64,000 nucleotides of DNA, taken from NCBI GenBank assembly GCA_022829145.1, contig CM040748.1, forward strand, positions 24,932,501-24,996,500, given 5' to 3'. Positions 1,009 to 23,843 of the stretch are shown one piece after another. The position numbers and the translations under genes are program-made. Position 1 is the stretch's first letter, and every line of letters begins with the position of its first letter. Source of the stretch: Albula goreensis. Taxonomy: Eukaryota > Chordata > Actinopteri > Albuliformes > Albulidae. The notes below the pieces were generated by a model, which saw only the letters and a list, made by a program, of their open reading frames with translations, had not been told where the DNA came from and did not search any database.

Positions 1009-4000
1009 GTATGTACAAACATCTGACGGACTTTTATTGTCATCACAAACGCATACATTTACATATCGAAACAATGACATTGCTGCCTTGCTAACGAAGT
1101 GTTTTTTTTTTCTATGTCTAATTACACTTGCAGGGTCGAATGGAATATCTTGTGAAATGGAAGGGCTGGTCTCCGAAGTGAGTAGAGTGCCATTTGAACC
1201 TCCCTAGCTGGGTTTTAGTTAGTGTATCTACAACCAAACAAGCTATCTCACGGTCAGCAGTTTAGTTAGCTAGTAATTTGCCCAGCTAGCAAGTTGCATA
1301 TCTAGCTAGCTCTCTTGTTGTTTGTGATTTGCTCGCTAGCCAGATTGCTCGCTGTGTAACGCTGGGTAGGTTACTAGCTAAACTATTCGCTTATGATTCT
1401 CAGTGAACAAATTCTCTGTGTGCCGTAAATGTTAGCTGCTAGCTTGCAAGCTAATCCCACACTATTCAATGTCATTACTCCTTTCTAGATATAGCACCTG
1501 GGAACCAGAGGAAAATATATTGGACTCCCGCCTCTTTGCCGCTTTCGAAGAGAGGTAAGCAGCCAACAGAAGGCCTGTGTAGCAGGCAAGCGGTGGCTAG
1601 AATGCAGTGCTGAATATGTCTAGCTTGGTAGCTGTGTTCCAGCACAGGCGTGCATTTTACTTCGCCTTGCAGACTTGCATGTGCAAAATGGATATCCGTG
1701 TGTTGTTGCAGAGAACGTGAGAGGGAGCTGTTCGGGCCTAAAAAAAGGGGACCAAAACCGAAGACGTTCCTTCTAAGGGTGGGTAAAATGAGTTAAGATA
1801 ATGTCCTCAGTTGACGGAGATTGTGGTGTAATCAACAAAATCAGGTTTCCCGTGTCGGCCAACGTGTCAGGCATGTGTCATATAAACAAACCTCTGACTG
1901 TCTCCACCCACTTTGACTTATTGGGCTATTCAGTCTGTCCGCAAGGGGTTTCATCATAGCTTTCACAGCCAATTTAAGGGTTTCGTTTATTCATGTGTAT
2001 TTGTGAATTTTGTTTTGTCGTATGCGTCTACACAAGGACAGTGCTTTGTAGTAATTATTTGGGAATGATCCGTGAAATATTACAGAATATTTCGGGAACT
2101 TAAAACCCAGAGTGAAGGAATTATCAAATTAAAATGATTTTAATGTCCTGAAATTATCGAAAAAATCCCGTGCATAATTTGAGATTAATAAATGTATATT
2201 AAGTGTGTGACGCTTAATCATGATTTCTCATGGATGCATTTTCAATAGCCGTTGTTTTGTTTCGTTTGTAGTGTAGTGGTATACAAAATTGGTCGTTTGG
2301 AATGGGAAAATAGAAAACATGACATTTGGAATAGGAAACATGACTAGTCTATACTCACCATTAATACAAATTCGTTAAAATGCACTTTACTAATGCTGGT
2401 TCATGTAACATTATTCCTGCTACGGGAAAGGAATTTGTTAAATCAAAAAATAAATAGCAAGAAAAATGTGTTTTTATTATAGTGCGGTATGTGCTTGTGA
2501 TCTGCATAGTCCATATCAGGACAATATAAACTTAGGTTGTGAATGCCGTTAAGTCAGATTTGAAAGTGTGGATTTTAGAAACGTATGTGAAGTATAAAGA
2601 CACTTAAGAAGCCTGATTAGTGACACATTCAGAATCTTACGTTTTTGTGTCAAAAGACATTTCAGTTTGTGGTTTGTTTCGTAAAGCTCTGGTTATCAGC
2701 ATCTTGTTAACTTTACCATTTGGAATGCCAGCACAGTTTTAGTTGTGTATTTAAACCCCTCTTGTGCAAAAATGTAGACCTATAAATGACAATATGGGAA
2801 TTGCCATTTTTCATATTGTTAATTCATAGGATTAAGACTTTTTATGATAAGTGTTCAGTGTCATTGGGTAATTTCTAGATGAATCTGTGTTATATACCAC
2901 TTAGAAAGGCTATGGTAAGATGACAATATGGTTACACTGAACTGAATTGAACATTGTACTGAGTGCTTTCAATGTATACACTCTGGCTTGGATTCAGTCA
3001 TACATACTTAGTCTCTTTAAGGGCAAATTCTGTCAAACCAGACTTTATTAGTGGAAACTTTTTCTTTTGAGTTATCTGTTATTTGAAATATGTGTTCTGT
3101 TCATCTTAGAATAAAAGAACATATACCCTTAGAGAGACTAAATCCATTTTCATTGAATTGCATGTGCCATTACAAGGACTAAGACTGGGTTGCATGCACA
3201 AGGATTAAGCTTTATTTGAATGTACCTTCTGTGTTTCACCAAGTCGTTTGAGATTGAGAACTTTGGTAAGCCATTATTTCAGAGATAATTTTGAATAATA
3301 CAATGCTAAATATGAGAAGAAGTATTGTAAATGTATGTATTCAGTTATAATCAGTTTTTTCTGTGCTGATATTGTACTTAAAAATGGTTATAGTTGGTTT
3401 TGTAACCAGCAGCTCTTCATGACAGCTCTCCATATTTGATAAACCATTTCTAACAATTTATATTTTAACACTGTACCTCTGTTTCTGCACTCATAGGCTC
3501 AAGCTAAAGCTAAAGCCAAAACATATGAATTCCGGAGTGAAGCAGCAAGGGGGATTCGGGTTTCGTTTCCCAATCCAGAGCCTGTCATTACCCCAAGAGC
3601 TCGGGAGGGGCTACGAGCCATTGTGCCCACCATTTTCCCACCCAGCACTGTCAACAGGGGGGAGAGTGTGCGCATCAGACCTCTGGAGCCAGCTCGGGAG
3701 CACAGACCCTCTGGACTGCATAGGTCCACTGGTGACGGATTAGTCTCCATTCCCAAGAAGAGAGGGCCGAAGCCAAAGCTGCGCTTTAATGACAACCTGA
3801 ACAGTGGGCCAGTCCAAGAGCCTGTGAAGAGACGGTCAGAAGAACAGTTGACTTATGGGCCAGTCAAACTGACAAAGCACAGTCCTCCTGAGGGGGAGAA
3901 GGCCAGCTCTGAGATGAGGGTTATTAAATTGGCACGGAGGCACCAGGAGGATCCCAGTTATGCCCAGAAACAGTCACGGGCCATGCCCAGTGCAAGCCTC

Positions 4001-4348
4001 CACCACTTTGGCTTAGAGAGGAATGTGCACACACATAGAGCAGGGTTGGACATTCAGAACTGCAGGACTAAGGAGTGCTCAGGTGGCATGTCCTCTCCAC
4101 AACCCAAGCTAAAGCATTTGTCAAAAAATAGTATATACCAACCAGACAGTCCCCCACTGAGGGATCAGCCCTCTCTTGTTGCCAAAATCCAAGTTTCCAG
4201 GATTCTGGGAGAACCAGATGAAGATTCCTGGAGCCCTTGCCTGAATAACGTGGAGAAGGTGGTGGTGACAGACGTGACCACAAACTTTTTAACTGTGACC
4301 ATTAAAGAGAGCAGCACAGATCAAGGCTTCTTCAAAGATAAAAGATGA
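940..4348 (+). CDS. cbx8: Chromobox protein 8, Polycomb PRC1 subunit (5 exons)
   Basis: Joined exons 940-1008, 1134-1177, 1489-1554, 1712-1778 and 3497-4348 give an uninterrupted 365-aa protein; human CBX8 is about 389 aa. The N-terminal chromodomain (about residues 8-60) begins [15 protein letters not shown] and keeps the aromatic cage F11, W32 and W35 that reads H3K27me3. It is followed by the basic KKRGPKPK motif (residues 70-77), repeated at 169-176, and by an AKAKAKAK stretch. The C-terminal Polycomb repressor box (from about residue 309: VARILGxPxEDSWSP-like, then [18 protein letters not shown] and GFFKDKR) is the part that binds RING1/RNF2. The C-terminus matches CBX8 rather than CBX2, 4, 6 or 7. 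The role known for the family is nuclear: a canonical PRC1 subunit that compacts and represses H3K27me3-marked developmental genes. The teleost a or b copy cannot be decided here. Confidence 0.95.
1134..1177 (+). CDS. cbx8: cbx8 coding exon 2
   Basis: Acceptor ttgcag, donor gtgagt. Encodes the chromodomain core [15 protein letters not shown] with cage residues W32 and W35. The Lys38 codon is split across the intron. Confidence 0.93.
1489..1554 (+). CDS. cbx8: cbx8 coding exon 3
   Basis: Acceptor tttctag, donor gtaagc. Encodes [21 protein letters not shown], the end of the chromodomain and its C-terminal helix. Confidence 0.93.
1712..1778 (+). CDS. cbx8: cbx8 coding exon 4
   Basis: Acceptor ttgcag, donor gtgggt. 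Encodes residues 61-82 with the basic [11 protein letters not shown] motif. Ends in phase 0. Confidence 0.92.
1779..3496 (+). other. cbx8 intron 4
   Basis: AT-rich intron of about 1.7 kb between the basic-motif exon and the terminal exon. I see no second gene and no clear repeat in it. Confidence 0.7.
3497..4348 (+). CDS. cbx8: cbx8 coding exon 5 (terminal)
   Basis: Acceptor ctcatag at 3490-3496. 283 codons run from [12 protein letters not shown] to GFFKDKR and a TGA at 4346-4348. It carries the variable linker, the second KKRGPKPK motif and the C-terminal repressor box. The large last exon is typical of Pc-class CBX genes. Confidence 0.94.
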   Translation, partial: AQAKAKAKTYEFRSEAARGIRVSFPNPEPVITPRAREGLRAIVPTIFPPSTVNRGESVRIRPLEPAREHRPSGLHRSTGDGLVSIPKKRGPKPKLRFNDNLNSGPVQEPVKRRSEEQLTYGPVKLTKHSPPEGEKASSEMRVIKLARRHQEDPSYAQKQSRAMPSASLHHFGLERNVHTHRAGLDIQNCRTKECSGGMSSPQPKLKHLSKNSIYQPDSPPLRDQPSLVAKIQVSRILGEPDEDSWSPCLNNVEKVVVTDVTTNFLTVTIKESSTDQGFFKDKR

Positions 4349-10116: not shown

Positions 10117-10233
10117 TTACACAGGGTGGCCGTAGTTCCTGTTACAGTGAGGGTAGCAGTGAGGGTTGAGCCAGTGCTCCAGGTTGGTCTCACGGGCCCT
10201 CTGCTCCAGACGTTGCATCTGCAGCATGTGTTC
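10117..10233 (-). CDS. c17orf67: C17orf67-like coding exon 3
   Basis: Acceptor CTCCTGCAG. Encodes E52 to V89, ending NRNYGHPV and TAA at 10119-10117. It contains LEHWLNPHCYPHC, the most diagnostic part of the family. Confidence 0.87.
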   Translation of the reverse strand, partial: EHMLQMQRLEQRARETNLEHWLNPHCYPHCNRNYGHPV

Positions 10234-12694
10234 CTGCAGGAGACAGGAGAGAGGGGCAGAACAGAGCGGGCAGGCACAGAGGGAAACTTGTTAAAAAACA
10301 TTTGGAGAGCAGCTCTTACTTCTGGGAGACGTACATTTGCCGTTGAAAAAAAGAGCACTTCCCATTACTTATCTAATTATTTACACATTTTCAAACACAG
10401 TTACCAGATGTTACTCTAATAGTTTTTCTGAAGGTTGAAAGCTTCATATTCTTTAGGTTCTCAAACTTGAAGGACTTTTGTTGACCAACAAATGCTATTT
10501 ATAAGTTCAGATTTATGGTATTCTCAAGTGATGAAAGCAAAATTTTAAAAATGGAGGAAAGACAGTAATGGAATGATCAGGAGAAAGAGGAAAGTTAAGA
10601 AAGGTAAACTACTGGGAAGAGTTTTCAGTGGTTAGCCATTTACTATCACATAATTTTACTCATTCTTAATTTAATTACAGACCTAAGAGGTGGCAGAGCT
10701 CCTTAAAGCTTTTGTTATAGGCTTAATGACCTTAAGATACTTACCCTCATTGGCTCATCTGGATGTCCAGCCTTACTGGGTCGGTCCCTCTTGCTTCGGA
10801 GAAGCTGTTTGGCTAAGTTCTCTCTGATGATGGGTGAGGCATCTACCGATAGAGGGAGACATGCTATGTATAGATTTAGCCAGCTATGTTTGCTTAACAG
10901 TCCACGGCAAACCCGCTCACCTTCACCTGCATCACATGACCAATCTCAAACCAAAGTGAGCAAGAGCTCTGAGGATTGACTGTGTTCAGGAAAGCATGAC
11001 AAATGAGCTTTTATGGCAGGGTACTTTAGAAAGAGAAACAAGTGTGAACTGTGGAAAAGACTGAAAAGACAGCAAGCTTAAAAAAGTAGAGAAAGTTGTT
11101 TAACTCTTATTTACTTTTTTGATATGAATCGTCTACATTGTTTCTCAAAGATCAGGGAAGTGGTTCAAATTTAAGAGATTACTTTCAAGACTAAAAGGAT
11201 ATTGGTCTGAACCATTCATTTTTAAAAGAATCTATTATTCAATATTTCATGAAGCACTTTGTGAATCTAAGACCATCTGTTGTATATCTGAAAATGAGCA
11301 CAGTCTGGCCATTGTACAGTTTTTTATTTTTGATTATGATCAGCAGTACCGGCTCATACATCAACAAAATAAGACAAGGTCGTTTAATAATACAGAGCTC
11401 TTCTGATGATAAAATGAAAATCATTCAAATTCAAAGAAATTGTTCTTTTCCATGTATTTCTTAATCAGATATACTCAAAAAGGTTTACTGAGGATAGTGA
11501 AGTTACTCCATGTTAAAAAAAGAGAAAGGAGAAAGAATCATTCCAAAAAAATGAACCTGTAAACAAAATGGTTGAATCACGCTGATCTGTCTTTAAGTTC
11601 TGGTAATGCACATAATATAAAAACATTCTTCTGCAGGCACTTATTATTATCATTTTGTTTGTTGTAATAGTGACATAAAGCTGTGGTAATTGTTTTTTTC
11701 TGTAGTTTTACAAACTGATTCTTTAAAAAAAAAACACAAGTCTGGAGGACTGGCCTCCCCGTTAGTGGAATTCACTCCCTTCTCAGAGGAGAATGCCATT
11801 AGAAGTTGTTTTTGGTGGAGCAACAAAGTGCCCATTCATCTCCCTCTCCCCCTGGGGATGTGGGCTGTGGGAGCACGTGACCTAAGGCCAACCTGTGAGG
11901 GGGAATGGAAATGAACCTGCCTCTGTAAACAGAGCTGGGCTCAGAGCAACGTGGCACGCAGCACTGAAGATCCACTCTGAGGACAGCCCAGTGTATGGAC
12001 CCAGGACTCTGGAAGAGTGTTTACACAGGCTCTAATGTACAGCATGGTGTAAAAAAGATGCCACTTTACATCGTCAAATGAATCTGGTAGACAGCATTAC
12101 AGTTGGGCATGAAACAAACTGTGTCATATTGAAATCATACTTTAAATACTTAAATTGTACTTTTCCAAAAAATGTCAAATCGTGACAACAGGAATGTGGA
12201 TTGGGGTATCATTGAATCTTCCAAAATGCAGTTATTTTTATTTATTAGAAATTTCAAAATGTTTAGAAAAATTACATTGAAGCAGTATACATCATGCATT
12301 GCATTTTCTATTTATTTATTTATTTTTGGAAAACCAATGTGAAATATTTGGGAAAGTTGCCATTTGTAAGGAAATACGTATATATTATGGACTCTGGATT
12401 TAATGATAAATGTTTGTTTAAAGGCATTCATTTTGTACTCCTTGACCATGGGATTAGCAATATAGAAATTGCCATGCACTCACTTTAACTACATACATAC
12501 TAAATATTCGAAGCATCACTAAAACTGCAAATTTGTTTACATTTATATAAATTGTATTGCTTGCATTAGGTGTTAGCGCAGAGGATAAGGAAATAAATAG
12601 TAAGAGTGCATAAAAACATGCAGTGTGCTTTTCGCCTACCTGTTAGGACGGCCAGCAGGACCAAACAGAGGAAAAACGCAACGAACTTCTTCAT
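10117..12694 (-). CDS. c17orf67: Small secreted precursor protein, C17orf67 family (3 exons)
   Basis: Joined minus-strand exons 12694-12640, 10842-10745 and 10233-10117 give an 89-aa protein; the human protein, recalled from memory, is 91 aa. Residues 1-18 (MKKFVAFFLCLVLLAVLT) are a textbook signal peptide, so the product should enter the secretory pathway. A furin-type RSKR site (34-37) follows SPIIRENLAKQLL; cleavage would release a 52-aa peptide (38-89). The most conserved parts are DRPSKAGHPDEPMRE and the tail LEHWLNPHCYPHC, which has the only two cysteines outside the signal peptide (C77, C81) spaced with histidines. The family has no established function that I know of. The neighbouring trim25 fits the human 17q22 gene order. 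Receptor or peptide-hormone activity would be inference only. Confidence 0.85.
10745..10842 (-). CDS. c17orf67: C17orf67-like coding exon 2
   Basis: Acceptor GGTAG, donor GTAAGT. Encodes D19 to R51, including the RSKR processing site and the RPSKAGHPDEPMR block. Confidence 0.85.
10843..12639 (-). other. C17orf67-like intron 1
   Basis: Intron of about 1.8 kb. It has a short run of tatt units near 12308-12327 and otherwise plain AT-rich sequence. Confidence 0.6.
12640..12694 (-). CDS. c17orf67: C17orf67-like coding exon 1 (signal peptide)
   Basis: ATG at 12694-12692 with donor GTAGGC after 12640, phase 1. The exon probably extends upstream as 5' UTR to an acceptor (CACAG) ending at 12744, which implies a non-coding first exon further upstream that I could not place. 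Confidence 0.85.
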
Positions 12695-16814: not shown

Positions 16815-17347
16815 TCAGATGGTCAGCTTGCAGAGGGTGATGGACGTGCCACTGGAGAAGATCCAGACAGCAGGGTAGACAGCCTCGGAGAAGGGTAGGA
16901 GAAAAGTGTGGAAGGGGTAGGCCCGGTCGGCCACGTTGTAGAAGGTGGCGGTGCCCTCGTCGCAGTTGAGCAGTACCCCAACACGGCTGGGGCTGGGGTT
17001 CACCAGGACGGTCTCGCTGCTGGCGTGCCAGGCTGACAGCTTGACGTTGAACCACTCCACACACCAGGACTGGCTGTTGCGGCCTAGGCGGCTGGCGGGG
17101 CCCTTGCGGTCAATGCTGCTGTAGGCCAGGCCCACGCCGCAGAAGTTGTTGCTTGACATCTTCACTTCCCAGTAGTGGCGGCCCTGGGAAAAGCCCTTGG
17201 TGCACAGGACCTGGGAGCACACGGAGAAGCGGCCAGGGGTGTCTGGGTATGGTGTCGGCTCATCAGACACGGTCGCCTTGGTGAAATTCTCGGATATGGC
17301 AATACGCTTATGTGCCGTTCTTTGGTCGAAGGTGAGCACGGTACCAT
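16815..17347 (-). CDS. trim25: trim25 exon 9 (PRY-SPRY domain)
   Basis: Acceptor TGTGATTTATAG. 177 codons run from DGTVLTFDQRTAHKRIAISE to ITLCKLTI and TGA at 16817-16815. A single exon for the whole B30.2 domain is the normal TRIM arrangement. The sequence is markedly GC-richer than its surroundings. Confidence 0.95.
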
Positions 17348-20300: not shown

Positions 20301-23300
20301 CACCCCTGACAGCAGATGCTTTCAGCTGTCAATCCACAGCGCTAATTTTACAACACATCTGACAGGATCATTCTCCCGAATGACTTGATGAAGTTAAAAT
20401 ATATATACAAAACACGCTCACAGCATCTGCGCCAATAATACCATATATAAAGGATTGAGGCAAAACCTGCCGTACCGGACCAAGATGATGCAGAAACATT
20501 CACACATATTCACCTGCTTCATGTGGATTGGGCAGCAGTGGAGGTGCAACTACCTTTTCAGCTACAAAAAATTAAACCAGAACAGACTGAGTGCAATGGT
20601 TCTTCTAACATCCAGGCATTTAGCATTTAAAGTGAGGTAACGTTCAGAATCATGTAGAATGCCAGAGCAGACCCTCACACCCAGAATAACATGTTGTGTC
20701 AGAGAGTATGAAAGTGCCATTATTTATCATGGTGTGGGAAACATGACTCTGGGTCTGAAGAGCCACAGTAAAGTGTTAGCTCCAACTCAGCTAGGAACTC
20801 AAATTCAGGAACTTCATTCACCCAATCATTGACTTGCATATAGCAGTTCAGTCACATTGCCTGCTTAATAAAATTTGTCTATTATAAAGCTAGAAAGTCT
20901 GGCATATTAGTGTGGCCTTCAAAACTCAGAGTCCAGTGGTGCTCATCCAGATTTCAGATTTGGTTAGACCTGTGTTCATTTTTTTCTATTTCACTCAGTG
21001 CTAACACTCACCATTATCTGACATGCTCCTCCAAATCTCTGTGGGATATAACAATGTTTTAACTGTCCATGTGACACTAAAAATGACCACTCCTAAAATA
21101 TATATGCACATAAGCACAGTGATGTGGTGCAGAATTTTCACATTTACATTGGCAGTACCAATAAAGGTGTTTTCAAAACCTGGTGCAGACTGTCAAGAAC
21201 ATATTACATCTGTAATTTTGAATGCCCCAGTATATGATAATTCCAGTATAGTGGCCAACCAACACAACACACAGGTACTTTACTTATGATAACCATGGTG
21301 ACAGAATCAGTTCGGGGTTGGCAAGGAGTGAGTCATAACAACAGACACACTTGCACAAAACGTAATTACCTGGTTTGAGCAGTAAAACTCTTCTGTCCAC
21401 GGGTTGCTTCATTAGGTTTCCCAGATACTCCTTCAGTGCGGCAGCAGCCTCAAGGTGGGGACGTTTGGGGTTGATATTGAGTCGAGGCGTACATGGGTCG
21501 AAGCCCACAGCCGAAGGCATGTCTACAGTAGCCTGTGATGCAATGGGTTGGTTTTATTCTGCCGGCTGGGCAATTGCATATCGATCACAGAAACAAGTGA
21601 GAACCTACTGTAATGCTACCTGAAATCCCTTATGTGGCTAGATGACAAGGAAATGCAAAACATTTGACCTGACATACATTCTCTTAGATAGGTATAACTT
21701 ATTGCAGTCTGTGCGTTATGTGGAGGACTCATATTTAGATATTCTCCACTTGAAAAATGATAAGGTTTTTGAGCTTCATATGTGTGGTTGCTCAGGTCAT
21801 TCATAGTATATATTAACAGCAGATTATAGCAGAGCATCACCTGCAGGAAAGCCAGTGACTGACTCTGGGCCAGCAGGCTGTTAATGTGGTCTTTTGCCCC
21901 CCTCATCTCCACCACGTTCTGATCAAACTTCTTCATCAAGGTCTGAAGCCTGGACAGGGCAGTCTCTTGCTCCTTGTCCACACTCTTCATGGCCTCCTGC
22001 TCATCCTTGTCAATCATCTCCCTGATCAGCTTATACTCCAACTCCAGCTCCCTCTTCCGACTGGCTGCCGAGTCCTGAATGGCAAGCACATGATCATCAT
22101 AGTACTGCATAGTGAAAGTATACAATACACTGTGGACAATTTAAACTAACCAAAGTGAATTTAAAAAGGATAAGTAATATATAGGTTTGCCAACAGACAC
22201 TTCCAGCCAGGAAGAACTGTATGTCTGTACAAAGCTGCATTTCAGGAAGTGCTGTGTTTTCTGTTCAAAAATAAAAGTTTTACTTCCACATGATTTTTTC
22301 CAGTTCTATATCCTGCAATGAAAACTCCTGTGGGAGCATTAACACCACACATTTACTCAGCTTATCACAGTGAGACAGAGCACATTTACAATGTTTTTGT
22401 TCACAATGTCTCTTATTATTCACTTTTGAATATTATGTTAATTTTCCCCTGCCTCTTCAACAAAATCCAGCCAACTATTTGGCAGCTTAGTATCCATTGT
22501 TAAATGTCTTTCACAAACCCAAGCCAGCAGCACAAGCCAAAGATTATCAGGCCTTGCTAATTAGCAAAATACAGAATATGTTCCATGTTGCAAATTATGG
22601 GGACTGACAGAGATAAAAATATAAACAATAGATATCTACAGAATTTATAATTCATTACAGGTACAAAGGGAGTAAAATAAGTCGCTGAAAAAAGATACAC
22701 TCAATGCGACCACAGTGGTTTTTGCAGTATGTGCTTGTTGCATTGAGTTTTTTTCAGTAGATAGGTGTTATTTTACTTGCACTGATTTCTAAGTGTGGAT
22801 GTTATATATAAGTTCTGCAAGCAATTAACTACAACCATAAGACAGGTGTTGGTGAAGGTGTAGAAATAAGCAGATTGAGTACATGACTGCAGTAAACTAC
22901 TTCATGACCCATCACAATTAACAACAAATGGTAAAATACTGCACAAAATTTTAGATGGGGTGTGTGAAGAATGAGCATACTAAACACATGTAATAACTAT
23001 GATGTTGTAAGAAAATATTAAACTTTAAAATAGACTTACTTTCAGTACACATTGCTGTTCCTTCATCTGGGAAACGGTCATGTGGGTCTTCTCAATTTTT
23101 CCATCCAGCAGAGATAACTTATTCCTTAAATCAGACTACAGAAAACAAACATATGCTGTATAAACACAGGCTATACTGCCAAATGTTAAACAACCCACTG
23201 ATCTTATTGACCAATCAAAATAGACGGGGAATTTACAGACCTCTTGCTGACCCCGTCGCTCATCCGGTGTACAGAATGAGCAGCCCTTGTGGGTTTGCTG

Positions 23301-23843
23301 CAGACAGAAGCTGCAAATAGGTCGACAGTGCTGGACGCAGAAGAACTCCATCATTTTGTAGTGGTCAGAGCAGATTCGCTCGCGGAGGTCTGCCAACGGC
23401 TCGTGGAGCTGGTGCGCCGCAAAAACAGGGTTCTCCTGATGCGGTTTCACGTGCTCCACGCAGTAAGATGCCATGCAGGTGAGGCAGGTCTTAAACGCCT
23501 TCGCCTCCATGCAGTTATCGCACAAAATTGCCGGAACTTCTGGCTGCGTCTTCACGGTCACATCGCAGAAGCTGTCAGCCTTAGTCTTTAATCTGAACTT
23601 GTCCACCACAGCGTCGAGTACCGTGTTCTTCTTCAGCGCGGGTTTGGTGTAGAAGTGTGTCCTGCACTGTGGACAGTTGTAGCCCAGAGCCACCTGTTCG
23701 CTCTCGCGCCAGGTCAGATCCAGGCAGCCTTGACAGAAATTATGACCACACGGAGTGGTCACAGGACTATCAAAAGGACTGAGGCAGATACTGCAGGTCA
23801 GCTCTTCTTCGAGACTCAACAGAGAAGGCATCTCGTCAGCCAT
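16815..23843 (-). CDS. trim25: Tripartite motif protein 25, E3 ubiquitin/ISG15 ligase (9 exons)
   Basis: Minus-strand exons 23843-23241, 23135-23040, 22104-21841, 21532-21370, 20561-20514, 20201-20130, 19299-19264, 18654-18541 and 17347-16815 join in frame to about 642 aa; human TRIM25 is 630. The RING is complete C3HC4 (C17, C20, C32, H34, C37, C40, C57, C60). Two B-boxes follow (about 108-147 and 158-191), then a coiled coil (about 202-330), a Lys/Pro/Ser-rich linker and a C-terminal PRY-SPRY (about 466-642) with the TRIM25-like SNNFCGVG and GPASRLGRNSQSWCVEWFN. The 96-nt second exon is the classic TRIM size. In the known family it is a cytoplasmic, interferon-induced ligase that promotes RIG-I signalling and binds RNA through linker and SPRY. 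An ISRE lies just upstream. The gene looks intact. Confidence 0.95.
17348..18540 (-). other. trim25 intron 8
   Basis: Intron before the SPRY exon. It contains a candidate 24-nt mini-exon (17902-17925), described among the findings, and otherwise no feature I can support. Confidence 0.6.
18541..18654 (-). CDS. trim25: trim25 exon 8 (linker) with tandem acceptor
   Basis: Encodes SKKHPNPSKELEAAIAKLKE and on to GPSQKA, donor GTGAGG, phase 1. The acceptor reads CAAGAAG, so splicing at either AG keeps the frame: 114 nt from 18654 or 111 nt from 18651. The first gives D-K-A-S, the second D-T-S at the junction. Confidence 0.82.
19264..19299 (-). CDS. trim25: trim25 exon 7 (linker mini-exon)
   Basis: 36 nt, phase 1 at both ends, acceptor TCTGTTTCAG, donor GTAAGA. 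Encodes AKKPDQKESKGD, again lysine-rich. Confidence 0.8.
20130..20201 (-). CDS. trim25: trim25 exon 6 (linker mini-exon)
   Basis: 72 nt, phase 1 at both ends, acceptor CTTTTTAAG, donor GTAGGT. Encodes GPLNSASSGPCPSTKTGQKKKPQA, a basic segment comparable in position to the lysine-rich linker of mammalian TRIM25. Confidence 0.8.
20514..20561 (-). CDS. trim25: trim25 exon 5 (linker mini-exon)
   Basis: 48 nt, phase 1 at both ends, acceptor TTTTTTGTAG, donor GTGAAT. Encodes AEKVVAPPLLPNPHEA. Assigned because it joins neighbouring exons in frame and has good splice sites. Confidence 0.75.
21370..21532 (-). CDS. trim25: trim25 exon 4 (end of coiled coil, linker start)
   Basis: Acceptor CATCACAG, donor GTAATT, leaving phase 1. 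Encodes ATVDMPSAVGFDPCTPRLNI through VDRRVLLLKP. The frame joins exons 3 and 5. Confidence 0.87.
21841..22104 (-). CDS. trim25: trim25 exon 3 (coiled coil)
   Basis: Acceptor CACTATGCAG, donor GTGATG. 264 nt encode a highly charged helix with repeated E/K/D heptads (YKLIREMIDKDEQEAMKSVD) that ends SLAFLQ. Confidence 0.9.
22105..23039 (-). other. trim25 intron 2
   Basis: AT-rich intron of about 0.9 kb. It holds an imperfect inverted repeat (22685-22707 against 22740-22757) and no other feature I can support. Confidence 0.6.
23040..23135 (-). CDS. trim25: trim25 exon 2 (start of coiled coil)
   Basis: Acceptor TTTTCTGTAG, donor GTAAGT. Exactly 96 nt, the conserved TRIM exon-2 length. Encodes SDLRNKLSLLDGKIEKTHMT and onward, with heptad-like leucines. 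Confidence 0.92.
23241..23843 (-). CDS. trim25: trim25 exon 1 (RING and B-boxes)
   Basis: ATG at 23843-23841, 201 codons ending RRGQQE, donor GTCTGT, phase 0. The reading frame stays open for a further 35 codons past the donor, but exon 2 continues the coiled coil. All eight RING zinc ligands are in this exon. Confidence 0.94.

Follow-up and report, generated by a model that had tools for sequence, protein, structure and literature searches.

C17orf67 of Albula goreensis: structure and conservation of a precursor from an orphan secreted-protein family, with a hint of a vitamin K carboxylation signal in its propeptide

C17orf67 is predicted to be secreted (PMC10298883). In mouse, Gm525 is given as a marker of cochlear fibrocytes (PMC10718637) and is reported from middle-ear and lung lymphatic endothelium (PMC7174727, PMC10962217), while a salmon table lists gm525 as the C17orf67 homolog (PMC10900267). 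In chicken femoral-head separation, C17orf67 is lowered along with DPT, OLFML1, ABI3BP, FAM180A and ELN in one top-10 table (PMC6937697). The height SNP rs4794665 (PMC2646138) and the osteoarthritis SNP rs9908159, which adjoins a NOG signal (PMC8459317), have been assigned near the gene, and both signals may belong to the neighbouring NOG. In a family whose deletion removes one copy of each of 13 genes, C17orf67 and NOG included, the symptoms described are of the NOG type only (PMC4376726). Conservation of C17orf67 extends from sharks to mammals. The literature found, as far as its text was available, assigns the protein no function and describes no experiment on its secretion, cleavage, disulfide or binding.

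Two further systems resemble C17orf67 in build. A review that counts 14 human vitamin K-dependent proteins also reports carboxylation of UCMA (PMC8430550, available text). UCMA (PF17085) and C17orf67 have in common a signal peptide, an aromatic/aliphatic-x5-A-x3-L propeptide with a furin-type site, a Glu-rich mature part and secretion in connective tissue, whereas the Glu-rich stretch of UCMA is longer and its mature part is without cysteine; this likeness is one of layout and does not imply kinship. Osteocalcin (BGP), on the other hand, is like C17orf67 a mature Glu/Cys peptide of about 50 residues in which E-x3-E is followed by a cysteine. Its two cysteines have 5 residues between them whereas those of C17orf67 have 3, it has E-x3-E-x-C where C17orf67 has E-x3-E-x-W, its docking propeptide is known whereas that of C17orf67 is suspected, and no profile match joins the two. 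The E-x3-E-x-W-L-N-P-x-C stretch of C17orf67 is reminiscent of E17/E21/C23-C29 in human osteocalcin.

Gene structure, family and conservation

In the window, by which we mean the whole 64,000-nucleotide stretch of Albula goreensis DNA that was analysed, the C17orf67 coding sequence is formed by three minus-strand exons with canonical splice sites (55+98+117 = 270 bases, 89 amino acids). The features are as follows.

12694-12640, minus strand: coding part of exon 1, with ATG at 12694-12692, GT donor, phase 1; signal peptide residues 1-18 and the first base of codon 19
10842-10745, minus strand: exon 2, with AG acceptor, GT donor, phase 0 at the 3' end; residues 19-51
10837-10787, minus strand: propeptide S21-R37, with the candidate docking core I23-x5-A29-x3-L33 and the furin-type site R34-S-K-R37 (coordinates counted from exon 2)
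10233-10117, minus strand: exon 3, residues 52-89, with the TAA stop at 10119-10117; carries E52, E66, E70 and the LNPHCYPHC tail
10170-10144, minus strand: LNPHCYPHC, residues 73-81, with C77 and C81 (coordinates counted from exon 3)

Exon 2 encodes the end of the signal peptide, the propeptide with RSKR and the start of the mature peptide including E48. The precursor consists of the signal peptide MKKFVAFFLCLVLLAVLTDA, the propeptide SPIIRENLAKQLLRSKR and the mature peptide DRPSKAGHPDEPMREHMLQMQRLEQRARETNLEHWLNPHCYPHCNRNYGHPV, with cleavage of the first placed after A20, between A and S of T-D-A-S, by the (-3,-1) rule alone. The mature part of 52 residues has C77 and C81 as its only cysteines, and C10 lies within the signal peptide. 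The initial annotation had described the same gene and layout (89 residues, RSKR at 34-37, a 52-residue mature part, two cysteines), which were found again on re-reading the sequence, and the signal peptide it proposed is supported by the same rule.

The window protein matches Pfam DUF4543 (PF15076) with E 3.9e-43 and 145.9 bits against a gathering score of 27, and 123 of 125 candidates match it at E<=10 in the protein search, so its identification as C17orf67 is not due to chance. PF15076 is present in all 120 homologues among the matches listed, which are 51-100% identical to the window protein over the aligned part; the Albula glossodonta protein is identical across 79% of the query. Orthologues were found in chimaera, sharks, lungfish, coelacanth, ray-finned fishes, an amphibian, sauropsids and mammals, and among 70 candidates of a search with the chimaera query none was a lamprey by name. 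Both the C17orf67 identity and the orphan status claimed earlier are borne out, the latter by Pfam, which describes DUF4543 as a 'domain of unknown function', and by the literature search, which returned no paper naming the domain. On sequence grounds the window gene is the Albula orthologue of C17orf67, an ordinary and already catalogued member of a known orphan secreted-protein family, with which it has in common the layout, the furin-type site, both cysteines and four glutamates. There is no essential difference from the family; residue 80 is His here and Arg in many other rows.

A VMAP-M4 match in Pfam (19.3 bits, cut-off 27) and a PDB match to DHP1 (E 5.1) were taken as chance, and the Rfam scan of the window (gathering score) and the prokaryotic NCBIfam library each gave 0 matches. 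The listed homologues are named C17orf67 homolog, Si:dkey-31g6.6, hypothetical or alike. One of them, P0063 (Gambusia affinis C17orf67), is called 'Gla-rich protein' in UniRef, which is another name for UCMA; this protein has about 30 additional residues between its exon 2 and exon 3 parts.

Conservation was read from an alignment of 121 rows (the window protein and its homologues among the matches listed) and from the same alignment enlarged to 150 rows by the chimaera-query search. Among the matches listed, R-x-[KR]-R follows the signal peptide in 149 of the 150 rows, from shark to mammal: R34 is found in 150/150, [KR]36 and R37 in 149/150 each. A29, G44 and D47 are present in all 150 of these listed rows, and the glutamates are near-invariant in the same set (E48 149/150, E52 142/149, E66 141/149, E70 145/147), as are C77 (142/145) and C81 (140/144). 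The orthologue alignment proposed in the initial annotation therefore upholds both the RSKR site and the cysteines. Its 'conserved HC-x2-HC tail' stands for the cysteines and mostly for H76 (135/145 listed rows) and falls for position 80, with H in 71 and R in 69 of 144, so that the tail motif is really HC-x-P-[HR]C.

In the 121-row set of listed matches, A29, Q31, R34, R37, G44, D47, E48, E52, E66, E70, N74, P75, C77 and P79 are invariant, C81 is kept in 119/120 and H76 in 119/121, and position 80 is R in 69 and H in 51 of 120. E61 is variable in these rows (E in 68, D in 49 of 121).

Isoform-like and low-quality models were kept in the 150-row counts, and the rows with exceptional Glu positions, among the exceptions whose sequences were viewed, are such models, which differ by an insert or in their 3' end (among P0257-P0269). 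An exception of more weight is P0248, a dogfish model that carries the label partial and is without one of the two cysteines. Several mammal models (P0261-P0269) keep the signal peptide, propeptide, RSRR and DEP stretch and continue into unrelated 3' sequence; these are either isoforms spliced from the first two exons or errors in the models.

Proposed processing and site of action

The explanation we prefer, to which we give a probability of roughly 55% as a whole, is that of a secreted, cleaved and locally acting matrix peptide. The 20-residue signal peptide would take C17orf67 into the secretory pathway, and secretion is almost certain from this layout. A furin/PC-type protease would very probably cut after R37 and release the 52-residue peptide. 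This would consist of a flexible linker, a single helix spanning about residues 47-73 and bearing an acidic stripe of E48, E52, E66 and E70, and a tail in which a disulfide between C77 and C81 probably makes a small C-x3-C loop. The likeliest place of action is the matrix that surrounds fibroblasts and lymphatic endothelium, although the chances for and against such a local role are evenly balanced. The acidic face would bind calcium or mineral, or a basic partner, either in the matrix or a receptor.

The AlphaFold model of the eel orthologue P0003 (46 rows; eel numbering = window +1) has helices at 2-17, 26-39 and 48-74 and no ordered tail; it is of poor quality, with a mean pLDDT of 69.3, a pTM of 0.29 and residues 87-90 below 50. 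On an ideal helix, E48, E52, E66 and E70 fall at 0, 40, 0 and 40 degrees, forming the acidic stripe, and M50, M54, M57, L60, A64 and W72 fall at 120-240 degrees. This helix is not cleanly amphipathic, with L55 and L73 (340 degrees) and L69 (300 degrees) near the stripe. Such a modelled stripe suits binding of calcium, mineral or a basic partner, whether carboxylated or not.

Candidate carboxylation and other readings

What is new here, in a gene already catalogued, is a testable carboxylation hypothesis. C17orf67 may be a vitamin K-dependent Gla peptide, whose propeptide would dock on gamma-glutamyl carboxylase (GGCX) in the ER, whose E48, E52, E66 and E70 would become Gla, and which, after removal of the propeptide by furin, would bind calcium or mineral like osteocalcin, MGP and UCMA. 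It would then be an unrecognised member of the vitamin K-dependent proteins with an osteocalcin-like build and a separate origin. We regard this as a tentative and rather unlikely proposal. If true, a small calcium- or mineral-binding Gla peptide of connective tissue and lymphatics would be added, and the warfarin and GGCX phenotypes of soft tissue, vessels and skeleton would be affected by a new vitamin K-dependent protein that fibrocytes and lymphatic endothelium make.

In its favour, the 17-residue propeptide directly follows the signal peptide and its core, [I/V/L]23-x5-A29-x3-L33, has the GGCX-docking spacing, and the four near-invariant glutamates lie on one face of the predicted helix. 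In the factor IX-GGCX structure, as described in the available text, a hydrophobic pocket holds F31, while L41, ten residues on, touches the other lobe, and F31G and L41W weaken GGCX binding more than 10-fold (PMC12589487). The window propeptide has the aliphatic Ile at position 23 instead of the strongly conserved Phe of the F-x5-A-x3-L docking core, which counts against the proposal, as does the post hoc selection of the motif after the sequence had been viewed.

A docking matrix was built from the 11-residue cores of human prothrombin, factors IX and X, protein C, protein S and osteocalcin, whose letters match PDB chains (protein S over the 26 residues present in the chain). Left out in turn, these six classical substrates score 10.5-24.8, and UCMA, held out, has a median of 6.8 (113 of the 120 among the matches listed were scorable). 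Among the matches listed, the C17orf67 family has a median of 3.0 (n=120), with 4.9 for the window, and teleosts have a median of 2.3 (n=70, window included), below UCMA. The medians of non-teleost ray-fins (9.0, n=5), sauropsids (8.4, n=12) and mammals (9.0, n=30), again among the matches listed and with the gapped row P0089 dropped from group scoring, are above that of UCMA, and single sequences of chimaera (12.2), coelacanth (8.6) and salamander (14.0) were also scored. Most C17orf67 scores are thus below the classical substrates, whose range is entered, among the best rows listed, by the salamander, the chimaera and one mammal (10.9) alone.

Against i.i.d. random residues the P value is 0.0046 at the window score of 4.9, 0.0006 at 8.6 and 0.00006 at 12.2, whereas a null that keeps the hydrophobic/polar pattern gives 0.088, 0.023 and 0.005. 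Shuffling of the own propeptide gives P of 0.018 for the window, 0.0005 for chimaera, 0.0012 for turtle and 0.054 for teleosts. Other 11-mers of the family reach 8.6 in 2 of 9968 cases, and the five non-Gla sites that could be scored range from -4.0 to -14.3. An 18-position propeptide HMM gave nothing significant (the window reaches -0.6 bits and the highest row 5.8 bits, with E 200 in a PDB-sized set); mammalian C17orf67 has a median of 2.4 bits (n=24), near the 2 bits that 15 of 810 shuffled proteins reach, 4 of 810 attaining at least 6 bits. As UCMA, an accepted substrate, also fails here (median -0.8, maximum 4.8 bits), the HMM test is without power.

The Pfam Gla domain is not matched at E<=10 by the window protein, and UCMA, an accepted Gla protein, is likewise without a Pfam Gla match. 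The classical Gla motif E-x2-[ERK]-E-x-C is absent from the window protein, where E-x3-E-x-W is found instead. The family profile and the propeptide profile have 11 and 2 weak PDB matches respectively, none of them a Gla protein, and the literature search gave no paper combining C17orf67 and 'vitamin K'. Judged on its letters, the C17orf67 propeptide carries a hint of a vitamin K carboxylation signal.

A processed peptide hormone or growth-factor-like ligand, acting at a distance on a cell-surface receptor, would equally have a signal peptide, a furin-type site and a conserved 52-residue mature peptide with two cysteines. In many hormone precursors the propeptide drifts, and conservation is unusual for such a spacer. 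The propeptide of C17orf67 does not drift: 4 of its 17 positions are invariant against 10 of 52 in the mature part (121 rows, matches listed), so the two are about equally conserved. With no amidation signal, and with expression that the available text of the literature places in fibrocytes and lymphatic endothelium rather than in endocrine cells, we consider a hormone quite improbable.

Metal binding through the His/Cys tail would agree with the conservation of C77, C81 and mostly H76, but the second His, which the initial annotation had counted in the site, is replaced by R in 69/144 rows, and two cysteines in an oxidising compartment favour a disulfide; this reading is very improbable, and a zinc-binding HC-x2-HC was rejected on the unconserved H80.

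UCMA was represented by a mammalian set (human sequence as query, 373 of 455 candidates matched, 120 among the matches listed), of which 19 listed proteins, mammals only, were aligned as a profile. Despite the common layout and the short likeness near the C-terminus raised in the initial annotation, descent of C17orf67 as a diverged paralogue of UCMA is hardly credible and homology is not supported against this mammalian set, since hhalign gives a probability of 0.4-0.7%, its score with sparse columns removed is equalled by 43/300 full-length and 95/300 mature-part column shuffles, the best such alignment pairs the signal peptides, BLASTP of shark C17orf67 with platypus UCMA gives E 6.9, and Pfam UCMA (PF17085) has no match at E<=10 in four C17orf67 proteins.

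Genomic neighbourhood and further copies

Two other genes of the window flank C17orf67.

16815-17339, 21616-22125 and 23136-23843, minus strand: exons of the TRIM25 orthologue, with PRY-SPRY (16815-17339), RING, B-box and coiled-coil
3623-4348, plus strand: a Polycomb CBX gene exon that encodes the C-terminal CBX motif PF17218 (E 1.1e-14)

The PRY-SPRY exon scores 207 bits to TRIM25 and 97 bits to the best non-TRIM25 protein, and the TRIM25 gene is about 4-11 kb from C17orf67, with the CBX-type gene on the opposite side. In human 17q22, C17orf67, DGKE and TRIM25 are described as neighbours (PMC4376726, available text), and the C17orf67-TRIM25 neighbourhood is also found in the window. In lamprey, C17ORF67 is placed beside NogginA in the text available (PMC7483449).

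A DUF4543 search of the own genome returned two true exons and 7 matches below the cut-off, of which five resemble noise. The other two, L006 (C7:20279126-20279185) and L007 (C7:20273840-20273899), lie about 5.3 kb from each other and are near-identical, decayed versions of the exon 3 tail (INPHCYPCCYRNYG...); they may stem from a degenerate genome-duplication copy that was later tandemly duplicated.
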